Below, in pieces: positions 4,931 through 22,369 of a DNA stretch of 64,000 nt (position 1 is its first letter; the number at the start of each line of letters is the position of its first letter). The notes below the pieces were generated by a model, which was not told where the DNA came from, ran no database searches, and was given only the letters and a program-made list of their open reading frames with translations. The DNA is taken from assembly GCF_000003815.2 (NCBI RefSeq), contig NC_049983.1:14492212-14556211 (forward strand), read 5' to 3'. Made by a program: the position numbers and the translations under genes. This stretch comes from Branchiostoma floridae (Eukaryota > Chordata > Leptocardii > Amphioxiformes > Branchiostomatidae).

Positions 4931-7900
4931 ATGGCTTCCCTGGACGTCGAAGGTATCGGCTGCTGCGTGGTTCAAAACGAAGATTTGATCCGTATCGACG
5001 CCACAGTCACGTCTGGTCTGGAGCAGATAGCGAAGGAGGAGGTGGAGGAAAAACTAGGCACAAAAGTGGTGAAGCGACGAGGTCGCATCAGGTTCGATAC
5101 GCCATACAAAGACTTCGCTCACAAGGTATGTGCCCCCTCCCCAACTCTACTTCTGACCACGTGCTTTTGGGGTTTTCTTCAACCACCAGTAATTTCTTAT
5201 CGCAGTTAACGTCATGAGCCACTACTCAAATTGCTGCCTTTGGAGATCGTAGCATCATGTACCAGTGCAAGAAGTGTTACCGGAACGCAACCGCATTATC
5301 GTATCAGCTGAAGTTTGTTTGGACTTTTCCCTTGATCCATATGTTTACTCACCACAGATCCAAAGTCTTCGCACCTTGGAAAATCTCCACGTGGTTGTAG
5401 CTGACTTTGAGAAGGAGGGTCTGGCAACAGACAGTGACAAGGTAATGAAAAATCATGTCTAGAAAACACTGGATTTACCAGAAGTTAGATATTTGTGGAA
5501 TAAGCTACTGAGTTCACCAGTCAAAGGCGAAGGCCCAGACTAGTAGATATTACAAAATATTATATATTACAAAATTTGAAAGTGTAAATCATGCTTGTGA
5601 AATACAATGTCTGAAATGATGCATTAGGTTATGTATGAGCCTTGTCTATTGTATGATTGTTATGATTTAAATGTCATGACTTCAGTTCCTGTGTAAATTT
5701 TGTGATACCAAAGGAACAGGAACCAGTAAATATCTTTGCCCATGTTCCTTTACACAGGATGCAGTACTTAAGCACTTCTACCAGCTTGCAAAAACCTTTG
5801 ACTGGGGTCCTGCTGTGTGCGCTTGGAAAACCTTCACAGGTGCCTTCCCTCATGAGCCAGGTCCTCCCAAGAAGAAACAGAAAATCCAGGACTCAGCCAA
5901 AGATACGTCCAAGATGCTGGAGAGGTATGAGAACATCATCTCAAGAGAAGAGATGGATGGACCAGACTCGGACAAGACTCAGGATGAAGCTGCAGAGAGA
6001 ACAGAATCAGTACTTTCAGAGGATGCACAGGACTCTGGTACAGCCAAGGTAGCGACTCAGGAAAAAGGAATGTCGAAAATGGAAATCTTCCCACTCCAGG
6101 CAGATACACAGACTAGCAGTGGTGTTCAGAATGTAGCTACAAATGTCAAGGACAAAGCCTCTTCTCCTTGTACAAATCTATCAACTGATGACCAAGATGG
6201 CACAGACACTGTACCTGCAGCAGTTGAAAATCATGGCCCACTGAAGCCCAAGTTTCGAGTAACCTGCAACAGGGGCGGAGCCAAGCACAGCTTCACCTCC
6301 ATGGATGCGGCCAGGCACTTCGGCGGTGGGATCAACGATGACCTGGGCTGGCCTGTGGACTTGACAAAGTTTGACATCGAGGTTGTGTTGAACATCTATG
6401 GGGACCAGGTCACAGTGATGATAGCACTGACTAAGGGGAGTCTACACAGGAGGAACATTCAACACTTTGGACCAACAACTCTAAGGTCTACTATAGTCAA
6501 TAGTATGCTGAGGTCAGTGTGTCTTGCCTTTATCAAAGAATAGCATGCTGCTAGGTAGCTATGACTATAAAGTAAAGGAGGGAAACATTAGATAGTCATG
6601 AATATGAATTTGTATTTATCCAGATGAGTAGATAAATGAAGATGTATTGACTGGAAAGTTTCTATTGTTCTCTTGTTTTGTGTTGAACTTTTGTTTACGT
6701 GACATCTGACATGTGCCATTCTGCTCCCCTTGCAGAATAGCTAATGTACAGGCTGGAGAAGTCATTTGTGACCCAATGTGTGGAAGTGGAGCCATCTCTA
6801 TAGAGGTAATAAAACTGGAAATCAGCACAAATGCTTATATTCTATTACATATACACAATGTACCTGTGATCTTACTGTGCAATACTTGGACTTGATATAT
6901 CTACACAATGTATTAAAGAGCCTCTTGATACCCCACCGTAAAGATTATGATATTTCTGCATATATATTTTCAGATTATCTTACTGTATGTTAACACTCTG
7001 CATGGATTTAGTGCTGATGGTTACTAACCAGTATGTCCGTAGGGTGGTCTTGATTTCCGGCAGTGCCTGCACCTGTCAGGAGACAACCATGAGTGTGCCT
7101 GTCCCCGCACCAGGGCTAACATTGCCACTATCAACAACCAGAGGAGGAGGAGCGGACAGTAAGTCATGACAACCTTAATAAAACTCATTTGTTCAACCTT
7201 TGTATAACTCTGTCACATTCCACAGAATTTCATAGAAAAGCAGAATTGTTTTCTGTACCTTTTGGACATTGTACTTGTATTCTACAGAGGAGTTCTGCCT
7301 GTGGACACCCTGAGGTGGGATGTGGGGAACCTTCCACTCAGAGATGAGACTGTGGATGTCTTCATAACCGACATGGTCAGTGCTGGGTTTTTGTACATTA
7401 TATCTCTTTCAAATGTAAAAATGCTATCCTTATTCTTTAATTCATCTATTGATTTGTTAGGTTTCATGATGCACTCCCCTATACAAAAACTAATGTTGTT
7501 GTTTTTTTCTTCTTGACTGTTCCTGGCAGCCATTTGGAAAACGGTGAGCATTTTTATCCTTGTTATTTTACTACTAAGAAACGAACATTGAGAAGACTTG
7601 TCCTTGTTATTCATCGAGTTTCCAGTCATTACTGAGAAAAAACACTTGCTGGTTCAAACACTGACATAACTGTGTATTTTTCCCCACAGACATGGGTCTA
7701 AGCAGGGGAACTGGGAGTTGTACCGGCGGACAGTACGTGACATGGCCCGAGTCTGCCGCTACGCTACAGGCAGGGCTGTCTTACTCACAGAGGACAAGAA
7801 GTGTCTGAACAAGGTGGGGCAAGAAATGAGAATTAGAACTTTGATTACTGAATGCTTAATGCATTCTTCCATATCTTTTCTTTTAGAACATTACATCTCA

Positions 7901-9631: not shown

Positions 9632-12600
9632 CTAGTGGTTTTCTACAATTGAGTTCCATTTCCTGCCGTCGTGTAGATGAGGCAGGATAGTTTTGGGCGG
9701 CCTGGCCTGTAGTTCCCGCATGGTTGTGTGGAGAGACTTCAGCCGGTAGTCCCGCCAGTTCACGTGCTTCTGCAGGCTGCGCTGCATCTCCTGCTCGCTA
9801 GGGTACGGGTTCTCCTGGACACAAAAACAACCTTGAGTTTTCTTGCCTAGCTTGCAAGCCAGAAGAAAAATAAGGAAATAGCCATGACAGAAATGTTTCT
9901 GTATAAGGATGTGTTCAAATATTCTACTTTCTTGTCACCAAACATCGTTATGTAAAGACGACGAGAAAAAACTCGAAAGAAATGTCACAAAGTGTTACAA
10001 ACATGTTGCTGAACCGACAAGAGGCGTTACTCACGTCTTCCTTCATCTTGTTGATGACCTGTACGGGAGCGTTGTCTAAGAAGAACTTTTTGGACAGCGT
10101 GAGGACCTCCGCACCGTCACTTACCAAGATCAGGCTGGGCTGGTTGTCAAACACCATGTCAACTAGACCCTGAAGAACAACGTTCAGATGACATGTAGAT
10201 TCTACTCTTATTCTTAATCAAAGTATATCCATTACACAGAACAAACGTGCAACGCAAAACTACACCATGTATACGTATTCCTTTTGACGGTGGTCGATAG
10301 CGGAATCAGCTTGTATTATGACTATCTGTAGAGTTAAGCTTGTAATAAGACGTCCTGTAAGTTTAACATTTATGTGAACCTTAATTGTCAAAAACGGTGG
10401 GATGAAAGTTATCTGCACTCACGAAGACTCCTCTTCTATTTAAGGACTTGATCTTGACAAAGACCGGCTTGTCTTGGATCTGTGAAGTCATGCTCTGGTC
10501 ATCCTGAATCTGTAATCAACAATAAACGAAACAAATGACAATCATTGACATTACATTAAGCATATACAACAGTTTGTTACAGATTCTAGAATCGTAATTT
10601 GTATAAGTGTGTTGTCATCCCAACGAACAATAAGTCATTAGGCTGCTACGAAAGCGCATTTAGCATCAAGAAACTTGATCGCAAAAATTTTTGAGACCAA
10701 AAGTCAGCTACACGGCAACTTTGTACCTGTTCTTGTAGGATGATACTTTCCAGTGACTTGAGAACGCTGTCCTTAGACTCCGGCGTCTCTTCCTTAGTGT
10801 CGATGTTGATTTCCGGTCTCTCCAACTGCCGGACCCGCCAACTGCCCTTCCTCATCTCCGCCTTCCTCCGCTTGAAGTCTATAAACCTCTCCCTCAGGAA
10901 GTGGTGGTGGTCTCTCTTCTTGTTCTTCTGTCCCAGGTCCTTCAGCAACTTGATTGTCATGTCTAGGTGTTATGAGAAAAGACATGGACTGTAGGATATG
11001 AAGTCTTGTACATAGAAATGTCTTTAAAAAGGCACAATTTACTGATAGTCACTTTTACCGTCGTTTGCATATGTTAAGTTTTATTAGTAGATTGCATTAC
11101 AGGAGCTGATTGTACTTTGAGTGAAAATTTGTGGCAGGCAACCCCAATGTACCTATTTTCGGCATTTCGTCTTTTGGTGGCGTGCTTTCCTTTGGTTCCA
11201 CCATCTGCAACTTCTTTAACACAGAACAGCTTCCCTGTATAAAATGACAGAACGATGTCAATGGAATGTCAATAGCATGGGACCATGAAGTTCGAACTCG
11301 TCAAAAATGTGAACGCAAAAATGTGAACTCATAAAATTGTGAACGCACGAATTGTGTGTTCAGGGGTGGAAATCACACGCAATAGAACTGTTTGTGTTCA
11401 GATTTGCATGAAGCGTAACTTGATTTACATCAAATAGAAGAATTTCTTTATCCGTGTGCTTGATGAAAGGAATACTAGCATCTTACCGACTTGATGACGT
11501 AGATCCAGTCGGAGTCAGTGCTGTCCTTCACTAAGACCGTCCCTCGTCTGAGAAACAAATGCATTGGTTAGGGAGTTATTGGCACGGACACAACGTTAGG
11601 CTTAGTTTTGAAGGTCAAAACCTTAGATTTTGTCATGAAAACACAGCGTATTACGGGGATTCTTGTGATAATTGCGATAGCAAAACAGTGCAGATCGAGG
11701 AATTTTTTACGGATAAAACAAAATATATGGCAACAAGAAGTGCATTGTAAAGTCATTTTTCACAAGCGTCAATATGAGATACAATGATTCTGTAAAATGC
11801 CACCCAGTACCTGATATAGCTGAATGTCATTTTCTTTGGAACTTTGTGCAACATCTGCAGAGGCCATCCTCTCATAAACCGCAGGCTCCTGTCAAGGAAT
11901 GGAGAAATGGAGAAAATGGATTATTTGTGAGTGTGCTGTGACTAGTAGTAGGCATCCTTCCATCTACTGTGACTACTTGGTAGGAAATTCTAGGAATATG
12001 CACAGCAAAGTATCCAAGTCTTTGTCAAGTTGAATATGTCGCTTTTCGGTCGACACCACGGAAACGGAATTCATCAAAAGACTTTCGTAGACTTACCCTA
12101 AAAATGCAACTTGAGCCTGCTCCTGTTGGGTGAGACCTTTAGTCCTCGCGATCCTTTCGAAATCCTGTGAAGAGATTGACTTTATTTCGCAATTCCATCG
12201 AGATGCGGGTATTTCGGAAATCTAATCTTTTCACACAGTTTCAAAGATATAGCCAAGTAACAAACGTTAAAAATAGTTATTTTTCAGTCTTTGTACCAAG
12301 TGACTAAACCAATCTCCTTTCACTGTTTCAAACGGCTAAATGTGAAAATGATATATAACCTATCATTGTCGTGTATAGGTTGCTGCATTCTAAAATTCAC
12401 AGTTGACTCACCCGTCGTTGTATGTGGAGAAGTTCTATCGTCTTCTTAGCTATTATTGTGCTGCATTCTAAAATTCACAGTTGACTCACCCGTCGTTGTA
12501 TGTGGAGAAGTTCTATCGTCTTCTTAGCTATTATTGTGCTGGTGTGAGTCGTGCCGTCCAGTATGGCCTTGTCCTGTTGGTAATGGAATAGATCAAGCCA

Positions 12601-15600
12601 CGTCGATGCCATTCAAAAATACCTCCATTCTTCATGGAGGTAATAATAGAATAACAGACAGAGAAACATCAAAATCACAATGTAGGCTAGAGTTTTGTGA
12701 AGATGAGTCGCTCACCCCAAAACAGTCCCCCATGTGTAGGAACCCTGTCGTCCGATATCTCCCTGCTGCGTCATCCCACTCACACTCCATCGCTGAGGAA
12801 AATACAGCAAAACGTTATGAACTTGTTTTCATCACGGTCAAATGCTTTGTCATCACGGAATACTCCTGATACCACAAACTGCACAGCTAACGCAGTCCAT
12901 AATGTTTGGTAGTGATTGTCATAGTTTACTGTAACATTGATGGCAACAGTTTACATACTTTGTGAAAGAGTTTATGTTGAACAGATACTTGACAGGTATA
13001 GATGTACATATTATAAACCTTGTACCTTGCCCTGAGAGTATAAAGTACACCGCCTCCGGTCTGTGGTTCTCTAGCACGATGACCCTGCCACGCCCAAAAC
13101 TGGTCCAGCACGAAAAGAAAAAGACAATTTGAAGATCAATGATATGAAATAAGTCTTGTCGCTCACACAATCATATGATCCACTATTAGTGACAGACGTT
13201 CTCTTGTAGAATTACGTCGTCTTTCATTTTACAAACATCTTACTTTGACGCCTCGTGGTTGGTAAGTAAAGAATACTAGTAGTTGCGCGTACCACTGATA
13301 GAAGCCAGTCTCCGTCAGTTTCCTCTGCGCCTCCAGCGGATACTCAGCAATGGTCTTTCTAATGATGGAGTTGACCGCAATACTGGCCTAGACGTGATAA
13401 ACAACATGTTATTGTGCTATGATACATGTTTTATAGTTTGAAGGCACATAAATTGACAGTCAACTCACGCAACTGTCTAGATTTTGGAAATGGCTAAGAC
13501 ATGACATGCAAATTCGTAACGTTCCATATGTTTTACTGTTTCCAAAATCCATCCAGTTTCTTGATTAACTGGTATCTTGGTGATATTTTATCATATATTC
13601 CAATATCAAAGCATTACAAGTTTACAACCAATATTGTAATTTCAGTGAGCCATAGCTGTGAAATATGCCTTACATGTTTGGTTTCCTCCGTGGTCCTGTT
13701 GCTGGGATCGATAGACAGGATCTCTTTAGTCTTGTGCGAGACACGGACGTCCTGGAACAATCATATATCAACAATCAGGTAATAGCCGTGTTGTGATATC
13801 AGTAATATCATCAGTTATAAGACACCCCTCCACTATTCCATGTATTAGTCTAGCCTCAGCCCTTTTCTGTAACACCACACTGGACTTCCACCTCTTCACC
13901 TCAAGACCCGAGCGATGAGCACATATTTGTCACCTGTTTCACTAACCACAACTGAATAAATCATCCAAGAGAGGATTTCCAGTCTAAGTCTGTTACCCTG
14001 CTGAAAAATTAGAGTAAATGCGGGATGTATCACAAGTTTGGTAAAATCTTTTTATTGCGATTTAACAAAGAGTAGCCCTTTGATGATTGACGTCATCGCT
14101 CACCTGTTTGTTGGCCTTGAACGCAGTGACGTCAAACATCGGTTCGTTTTTCCTCTCGTCCTTCTTCAGACTGGCGGCATTTCCCGCAGGCCTCCGTATA
14201 ACACCCTGTTCGTCAGCTCTGGAGCGGAAATCAGGAAATAATGTTCCCGATTATTTTGGTCATGATAATTTGAGACTAAAACTGGGCATTTTTGATTTGA
14301 TAGTAAAAGTAAAGTTATCTATCATCAATACTGCTCCAAGCTTGTAAAGAGATTCTTCATCTGTGTGTATTATTCTTCTTCTGGAGAATAAATGTGATAG
14401 CAACCCCTTTATCACATTTATTCTCCATAGAGAGAACAAAGACTCTTCTTCTGGAGAATAAATGTGATAGCAACCCCTTTATCACATTTATTCTCCATAG
14501 AGAGAACCAGAATTCTTCTTCTGGAGAATAAATGTGATAGCAACCCCTTTATCACATTTATTCTCCATAGAGAGAACCAGAATTCTTCTTCTGGAGAATA
14601 AATGTGATAGCAACCCCTTTATCACATTTATTCTCCATAGAGAGAACCAGGATTCTTCTTCTGGAGAACGTAAATGTGATAGCAACCCCTTTATCACATT
14701 TATTCTCCAAAGAGAGAACCAGAATTCTTCTTCTGGAGAATAAATGTGATAGCAACCCCTTTATCACATTTATTCTCCAAAGAGAGAACCAGAATTCTCC
14801 TTCTGGAGAATAAATGTGATAGCAACCCCTTTATCACATTTATTCTCCAAAGAGAGAACCAGAATCTCTCCTTCTGGAGAATAAATGTGATATTAGGCCT
14901 GTTCGTATCAGTATGGGGTTAACGTCACTAGCTCGCAGCATGCAATCGTTTCCGGAATTAAACACCACACACGTTACATTTGGGTGTAATATATTGTCCT
15001 TGATTTGGGGAGAATCTTTATGAATGTTACGTACATACACTTCTGTTGGTTATATAACGTCCTTGATTTGGGGGAAACTGTATAAGTTTTCTCCAGAGCT
15101 GAGGTTTGTCCAGACGAAGCGCCCCTATTTTGCGAACATGAGACCGGAAAAGACGTCACAGGGTACTCCCCCAACTCCGCGGGATGGAACAAAAACATAA
15201 ATCGGCATGAAAAGCCATCTGACTTTGTCATAGAGAACTCTTAGAGTTCGTCAGGCCAGGTAGGGACAAGGTAGTTGTTTTAGGTTGGGACCCCGTCTTA
15301 CGTCCCTTCCGAAAGACGAAAGCAATCACTTCTTACAACATGTCCGAACCTAGCCGAGCTGAACCGACCCCGGAATCCAGACATCGAACTCATCAGGCCC
15401 ACAGATCCATGGAATTGGATCCAGATGGGTAGGCCACGGAGATTTTGGTAATTTACATACCAGATAGAGTCGGAACACAGTTAACTTCAGATTCTAACTG
15501 AAAGGAAATTTTATTTGCTGACGATGCACAGCGAGAGGAAGCGAACGTGAAACGTGGGAAGGTGAATTCAGAAGTTTCACCGTTTCACAGACGGCACTTT

Positions 15601-17066
15601 GTCACCAGTCGTCTTCCAGAGCGTTTCAAATAATTGAAGTAAATAGGCATTTTCCTATCATTTTTTGTGGTAAAATCTGAGAAAAATACCGATACATGTT
15701 GGTACGCAGAAGTTGACAAGATATGCAAGTCGTTGTTCCAGAAACGTGTACAACAAGACGAGCTGTATCCATGATGTGTTCAAAAATTCAACAGAAACAC
15801 GGGACTGTTATTCCAGAGATGTTTAAGACCTGACGAGATGTAGTTATGGTTTGCGCAGTACTGTACCTGAAACACAGGACTAGCACATTAATTCTCCAGA
15901 AAGAACCCTGGTTCTCTCTTTGAAGAATTAATGTGATAAGGGTTTGCCACTAACTGGCAAAGACTACACATGTCATTGTGTCCGTACCTTGGTCTCCGTA
16001 CGTGCTTTCCGCAACATCCTGACTCGGCGAGTACGGTATGCACTTTCTATTGGTATACTTGTATTAGTTCACACGCGCTACTCAACAGTACGATTTGCAG
16101 TGACATTCATAACTATGCCACTAGTTAACGAAGGCAATACGCCTGACTTAAAGTGATACATAGCTCATACGTTGTTAATGATGTTAATGGTGAGATCTAA
16201 CCGTCTTTATCTTTGATTTTTTAAATGGACTCTAAGTCGGAACGGAATTTGCGCAAATCACGAATCGAGACGTCGCACAACGACGAAAACCGAAAACGAT
16301 TGCATGCTGCGAGCTAGTGACGTTAACCGCAAACTGATACGAAGAGGCCTTTATCACATTTATTCTCCAGAAGAAGGATCCTGGTTCTGTCTTTGGAGAA
16401 TTAATGTGATAAGAGGGTTGCTATCACATTTATTCTCCAGAAGAAGGATTCAGGATCTCTCTATGGAGAATAAATGTGATAAAGGGGTTGCTATCACATT
16501 TATTCTCCAGAAGAAGGATTATGGTTCTCTCTATGGAGAATAAATGTGATAAAGGGGTTGCTATCACATTTATTCTCCAGAAGAAGAATTCTGGTTCTCT
16601 CTATGGAGAATAAATGTGATAAAGGGGTTGCTATCACATTTATTCTCCAGAAGAAGAATTCTGGTTCTCTCTATGGAGAATAAATGTGATAAAGGGGTTG
16701 CTATCACATTTATTCTCCAGAAGGAGAATTTTGGTTCTCTCTTTGGAGAATAAATGTGATAAAGGGGTTGCTATCACATTTATTCTCCAGAAGAAGAATT
16801 CAGGATCTCTCTATGGAGAATAAATGTGATAAAGGGGTTTCTATCACATTTATTCTCCAGAAGAAGAATCCTGGTTCTCTCTATGGAGAATAAATGCGAT
16901 AAAGGGGTTGCTATCACATTTATTCTCCAGAAGAAGATTGTAGTAACACTTATTTGGTGAATTAATGTGATATAAAAACCTAAATCCTTTATCACATCTT
17001 TTTCAGTTATCACGACATTTATTTTATATACTTTTCAGTGCTAAATAAATGTGATAAATAATCAGG

Positions 17067-17107
<41 letters not shown>

Positions 17108-21988: not shown

Positions 21989-22369
21989 CTGCTGGCAGGT
22001 GCCAACAGGTGGGAATAGGCTGGCAGGTGCCTACAGGTGGGCATAGGCTGGCAGGTGCCAACAGGTGGGCATAGGCTGGCAGGTGCCAACAGGTGGGAAT
22101 AGGCTGGCAGGTGCCTACAGGTGGGCATAGGCTGGCAGGTGCCTACAGGTGGGCATAGAGTGGCAGGTGCCTACAGGTGGGCATAGGGTGGCAGGTGCCA
22201 ACAGGTGGGCATAGGCTGGCAGGTGCCTACATGTGGGCATAGGCTGGCAGGTGCCTACAGGTGGGCATAGGGTGGCATGTGCCTACAGGTGGGCATAGGC
22301 TGGCATGTGCCTACAGGTGGGAATTGGGTGGCAGGTGCCAACAGGTGGGCATAAGGTGGCAGGTGCCAT
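21989..22369. repeat. 28-bp minisatellite upstream of CNBD2
   Basis: About 13.5 copies of a GC-rich 28-bp unit built on GGCAGGTGCC(T/A)ACAGGTGG plus GCATAGGCT. Copies differ at a few fixed positions (T/A, G/A, ggCT/ggGT), so variants are interspersed, as in unequal-exchange minisatellites. It contains repeated CAGGTG E-box cores. Confidence 0.95.

Follow-up and report, generated by a model that had tools for sequence, protein, structure and literature searches.

A foldback element with palindromic terminal arrays in Branchiostoma floridae and its dispersed relatives of 0.2 to 35 kb

Introduction

Two arrays of short repeats that face each other in inverted orientation in the genome of the amphioxus Branchiostoma floridae raise the question of whether they are the ends of a transposon and, if so, what their palindromes do. 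The arrays lie in a stretch of 64,000 nucleotides of contig NC_049983.1, here called the window. A first-pass annotation made from the letters alone had proposed a foldback element at 14360-17060 with no transposase inside it, built from 70-bp units that are themselves hairpins, and had named the finding that would point instead to a local rearranged satellite, namely, that only this locus carries the repeat. Beyond that annotation, the true ends lie outside the arrays, one of them is lost in the window copy, and the family has members of 25-35 kb.

Results

The window copy consists of two arrays of palindromic units, a pair of inner cores, a middle domain, and a single terminus (Table 1). The arrays are mutual inverted copies, as annotated: complementarity is 95-97% in the five longest arm pairs (295-297 nt) and 93% in the 61-bp inner cores. 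The annotation put the number of sites at about 35; a search of the 64-kb window with the 16-bp arm core, at ≤3 mismatches, gave 36 matches, of which 35 fall within 14383-17055. Folding of two adjacent units gives 18-bp hairpins with a z score of −12.3, matched by none of 200 shuffles, in agreement with the description of each unit as a hairpin with 18-bp arms. The annotated span stops short of the element's right terminus at 17069, and the left terminus is missing: the copy retains the terminus that we call End A and is without End B, which in complete copies lies outside the left array. The 8 bp that lie 3 bases before the left array (CTGTGTGT) and the 8 bp beyond End A (ATGTGTGT) agree at 7/8 positions, an ambiguous match that is no proof of a duplication, since the right flank enters a TG microsatellite (17071-17104).

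Table 1. Features of the window copy, its surroundings, and related places in the genome (positions without a prefix are those of the window)
Feature	Position	Strand	Detail
Possible remnant of left target-site duplication, CTGTGTGT	14361-14368	+	3 bases before left array; putative
Left array, 70-bp palindromic units	14372-14892	−	7.4 units, 96% matches
Inner core of inverted repeat, left copy, includes AACGTCACTAGCTCGCAGCA	14895-14955	+	
Middle domain	14956-16289	.	Longest frame wholly inside, 88 aa
Lone internal palindromic unit, TTAATTCTCC subtype	15882-15937	+	
Inner core of inverted repeat, right copy	16290-16350	−	
Right array, 70-bp palindromic units	16352-16937	+	8.4 units, 94% matches
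End A, true terminus, inward from 17069 as AGACCTGATTATTTATCACATTTATTTAGC...	16938-17069	−	
Expected right target-site duplication, ATGTGTGT	17070-17077	+	Boundary taken from other copies; putative in window copy
Likely host gene exon, RXYLT1 C-terminal domain (RXYLT1_C)	766-1215	−	E 3e-59
Likely host gene exon, THUMP domain	5680-6540	+	E 6e-07
Tandem repeat, 78-bp unit	12381-12541		2.1 repeats, 100% matches
Tandem repeat, 28-bp unit	21991-22367		13.5 copies, 92% matches
Giant relative	C1:2371678-2396607		24,930 bp; own perfect 8-bp duplication
Giant relative	C1:30531109-30563033		31,925 bp; own perfect 8-bp duplication
Giant relative	C16:7301986-7336868		34,883 bp; own perfect 8-bp duplication
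Sister family, foldback order	C2:3717199-3720837		Among matches listed
Sister family, foldback order	C1:13824032-13827436		Among matches listed
Sister family, foldback order	C18:2708637-2712632		Among matches listed

The window copy is consistent with the annotated lack of a transposase: the longest stop-to-stop frame wholly within its middle domain is short, and the one frame of the element scanned against Pfam (74 aa) had no match. A stretch of about 219 bp within the middle domain (15512-15730) resembles at least 18 other places at 80-85% among the matches listed and is probably a fragment of some other dispersed repeat.

The repeat is not confined to this locus. In the window's own genome (513 Mb), the 18-mer has 1031 matches at ≤2 mismatches, compared with 54 for a reversed control, which excludes the single-locus outcome. 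For the inner part (14893-16351), four copies elsewhere are 98-99% identical over practically the whole length, many further ones are partial or diverged, and the arms of the window family are present in 19/20 of the relatives' regions examined.

Where the element ends was established from these relatives. The termini that flank the arrays differ, End A beginning AGACCTGATTATTTATCACATTTATTTAGC... and End B beginning AGAGTTAGCTATTTATCTCATTCTTTTAGC...; both start with 5′-AG (AGA or AGC), the boundary being set by the duplications. Patterns of the two ends, at ≤3 mismatches, have 110 (End A) and 27 (End B) matches genome-wide. Twenty copies with both ends were compared: 15 of 20 fetched regions and 5 MITE-size copies. 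The window copy, with one end, was excluded, as were L050 (no site and no end) and L043, L044, L048, and L054 (one end at most). Sixteen of the 27 End B matches fall in paired copies, one is that of L054, and the other 10, like most of the 110 End A matches, lie outside the comparison.

An 8-bp target-site duplication is exact in 14 of the 20 paired copies and matches at 7/8 positions in 4 more, while among 380 mismatched end pairs the best agreement was 6/8, reached twice. The duplications have no strong consensus sequence. The two copies with none at the boundary are C13:7.90M and C12:19.20M; in the latter, AGATATTT is displaced by 3 nt. These duplications, as read from the assembled sequence, show insertion of units of 0.2 to 35 kb. 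The foldback element of the annotation is thus upheld by dispersed copies whose complete members carry 8-bp duplications, and the same observation rules out a local rearranged satellite, for which the tandem 70-bp structure would by itself have spoken. In one copy without a matching duplication (L042), a 397-aa frame at positions 1204-2394 interrupts one array; it was rejected as the element's enzyme, its match to reverse transcriptase (RVT_1) marking an unrelated retroelement insertion.

End A and End B, aligned without gaps, are identical at 22/30 and 67/110 positions (maxima in 5000 shuffles, 18 and 53), and they are diverged homologues, inverted relative to each other. Both hold a motif related to the arm at offsets 13 (+), 64 (−), and 97 (+), and End A has an additional weak motif at offset 43 (−). 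The best match in End A has 3 mismatches, which only 1 of 3000 shuffles reached; that in End B, with 6 mismatches, is by itself no better than chance (515 of 3000 shuffles were as good). Since the two ends are homologous, the shared offsets are not independent evidence and may reflect descent.

The family spans a wide range of sizes, from 224 bp to 34,883 bp (34.9 kb) among the paired copies. The smallest, at 224, 268, 274, 392, and 463 bp, resemble MITEs and hold one or two site pairs each, degenerate in the 224-bp copy. Three giants stand at the other extreme (Table 1). Beside the End A array, 2.3-2.9 kb of their interiors agree at 98.3-98.9%, and beside the End B array all three share a 3.2-kb stretch at 98-100% identity, which insertions split in one copy. 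With differing perfect duplications, they are copies of one large mobile unit. In the 24.9-kb giant, C1:2375971-2377000 and 2387001-2392033 read as N.

The annotation had suggested looking for full-length relatives with a transposase. Six domains were searched for, and each has matches in the genome: the hAT dimerisation domain (PF05699; 33), DUF4371 (PF14291; 7), P-type RNase H (PF21787; 3), MULE (PF10551; 27), KDZ/Zisupton (PF18758; 12), and DNA_pol_B_2 (PF03175; 13). None lies inside the three giants, an absence that, with stretches of N in one giant, introns that may split domains, and a set of only six domains, is weak evidence. Frames were also surveyed in 12 readable interior stretches, with up to six frames of ≥75 aa each. 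Seven selected frames (four from L059 and one each from the window, L049, and L045) matched no Pfam family at E values up to 1, and one L047 frame matched none at E values up to 0.01.

Within the arrays, each unit consists of a site, a 26-nt loop, the inverted site, and a 12-nt spacer, after which the next site follows, so that site orientation alternates at two spacings. The annotation held that arms stay nearly perfect while loops drift. Among 243 units (174 in a close subfamily, 56 in a diverged one, and 13, those of L058, in neither), mismatches to the consensus in the close subfamily were 0.9-1.3% in the arms, 8.0% in the loop, and 3.4% in the spacer; in the diverged subfamily, they were 3.6% and 1.5% in the two arms, 19.9% in the loop, and 2.5% in the spacer. 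This count detects units by their arm sequence, which biases it. A second count, of 187 sites, gave 1.6% mismatches in the following arm, which was unselected, 10.3% in the loop, a value probably inflated by length changes, and 3.4% in the spacer, where the demand for a spacer match at 8/12 favours constancy. In the preceding arm, also unselected, 7.0% of positions mismatched, with a fairly even distribution across columns, probably from shifts caused by changes in loop length. The drift of the loop therefore stands, but the spacer is nearly as constant as the arms; in the diverged subfamily it is no more variable than they are, and constancy is not special to the arms.

Two further features bear on how the units evolve. 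At one arm position, which is either T or A, the two arms of a unit agree in 210/243 units, which may reflect one ancestral change or hairpin-templated correction; as possibly one inherited event, it means that the palindrome outlived a change and does not indicate how frequent such changes are. Units of the same array differ at 4.36 positions per 70, compared with 4.80 for units of different elements (the lowest of 1000 label shuffles gave 4.38), so that homogenization within arrays is weak.

These counts suit, in part, an alternative in which the transposon is real and its arrays are passive, playing no part in its movement but expanded and homogenized through unequal exchange and the correction of quasi-palindromes. 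Hairpin pairing by itself would keep the two arms alike, spacer and arms are about equally constant, and units within an array are slightly more similar than units of different elements. Array length also differs by copy, from one site pair in the MITE-size copies or a few units to about 23, and is unequal between the sides of one copy; insertion has occurred in copies limited to one or two site pairs. Such a passive origin, which we hold to be somewhat unlikely although it deserves to be kept in view, has to contend with the arm-related motifs in End A, a terminus outside the array, and with the design of a second family.

This sister family was met among the matches to End A, some of which start AGACTTGATTATTT... 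and run into different arrays. In L073 (1-301), the unit is 72 bp, and its arms, TAGTGAAATAATGTGATAGT and ACTAACACATTATTTCACTA, are 95% complementary; a 23-mer derived from it has 259 genomic matches and 0 in the reversed control. At listed places such as the three in Table 1, spacings are mostly 71 bp or multiples thereof, and the matches run forward on one side and in reverse on the opposite one. At two of these, about 210 bp past the last listed unit match, there is an End A-like match whose orientation fits (C2:3721047-3721072 and C1:13827646-13827671). A 176-bp MITE (L072) has related ends, with GGTAAAAA on both sides, the left copy being one extra A from the end. The window and sister families have related termini and share a palindromic design, with units of 70 bp and 71-72 bp, while the repeat sequence itself has diverged, and this retention of a palindrome in another sequence is what a passive array explains less readily.

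Discussion

Several lines of evidence place the element in the foldback class: it has long inverted ends made of tandem repeats, a variable middle, and duplications at its dispersed copies. With a probability of roughly 60%, we interpret the window copy as a foldback DNA transposon, truncated and non-autonomous, in whose arrays paired, inverted sites for the binding of a transposase have been multiplied. The candidate site is the arm, TTATCACATTWATTCTCC, and such a role for the 18-mer is plausible since related motifs sit in the termini. The layout runs from the ends through palindromic 70-bp units and, in array-bearing copies, an inner inverted core to the variable middle. The array would continue inward the alternating sites of the terminus (+ 13, − 64, + 97), and more paired sites might raise the affinity for the transposase or ease the pairing of the two ends. 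The enzyme would act in trans and could be encoded either in the interior of the 25-35-kb members or by an unlinked element. Long arrays are not required for movement, given the insertion of MITE-size copies that hold one or two site pairs.

A function of the arrays in expression or silencing, with hairpin transcripts feeding small-RNA pathways or with the repeats binding host proteins, would draw on the strong folding of two-unit DNA. Recognition by a transposase is the better fit for related motifs close to the exact termini, and we judge a role of this kind to be very improbable.

As to the superfamily, a duplication of 8 bp fits hAT, KDZ, P elements other than Galileo, and possibly MULE, whose duplications are usually 9 bp. 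The length is thus of the hAT type, but hAT termini start CA-G or TA-G, and those of the present element are AGA or AGC. It also departs from the 7-bp duplication of Galileo within the P superfamily and from the 6-bp duplication of Polinton/Maverick elements.

Among known systems, TU of sea urchins and FB of Drosophila share the foldback class, a likeness by description rather than by sequence. In TU, outer domains made of short tandem repeats, with units of about 15 bp that are not palindromic, occur together with inner domains, middles that vary, and duplications of 8 bp; FB duplications are 9 bp. Polinton/Maverick elements and Teratorn share large size with the amphioxus giants, and Polinton ends, like those of the amphioxus family, begin 5′-AG. 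The duplication of Teratorn is TTAA, whereas that of the amphioxus family is 8 bp, and all 13 genomic DNA_pol_B_2 matches lie outside the three giants.

Closer parallels come from two Drosophila elements. Galileo, of the P superfamily, has long terminal inverted repeats, inside which tandem repeats differ in number from side to side, as well as chimeric copies without matching duplications, according to the available excerpts of its description (PMC3573991). Its terminal tandem repeats contain secondary transposase-binding sites (excerpts of PMC3573991; see also PMC4079207), a role that is putative in the amphioxus family. Galileo differs in having 7-bp duplications and repeats of about 210 bp, where the amphioxus family has duplications of 8 bp and palindromic units of 70 bp in which site orientation alternates. 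Tetris of Drosophila virilis is likewise a non-autonomous foldback element with tandem repeats inside its terminal inverted repeats; its outermost ends are common to a MITE, its transposase was not found, and duplications of 8-9 bp are present in its three complete copies, with 8-10 bp also reported for it (PMC4079207, in excerpt). The same excerpts give repeats of about 220 bp, do not call them palindromes, and do not mention members of 25-35 kb. They also name a sea urchin foldback element (Lieberman et al. 1983) and assign most foldback elements to MULE (PMC4079207).

No lancelet element of this kind is named in the open-licence literature, among the matches listed; a search there for foldback with Branchiostoma returned only a match that concerned a tick, and one for LanceleTn returned none. 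A herpesvirus link in lancelets (PMC12373286) was dropped, the available part of that source showing no tie to the amphioxus foldback family. The element is real, and it is known in class and unusual both in its size range and in a design that alternates sites within 70-bp palindromes. A bolder reading, which we regard as unlikely at present, is that it represents an animal transposon group of 0.2 to 35 kb whose transposase lies outside the tested superfamilies and recognizes arrays of alternating sites that co-evolve as palindromes, the enlarged ends mobilizing very large units.

The family is of interest for the question of what makes foldback ends grow. Within a single genome, MITE-size copies, array-bearing copies, and members of 25-35 kb have the same ends and clean duplications, and a sister family has a palindrome of its own. 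Such a set makes it testable (i) whether multiplied paired binding sites let a transposase move very large DNA and (ii) whether selection or hairpin correction keeps the arms of the palindrome equal.
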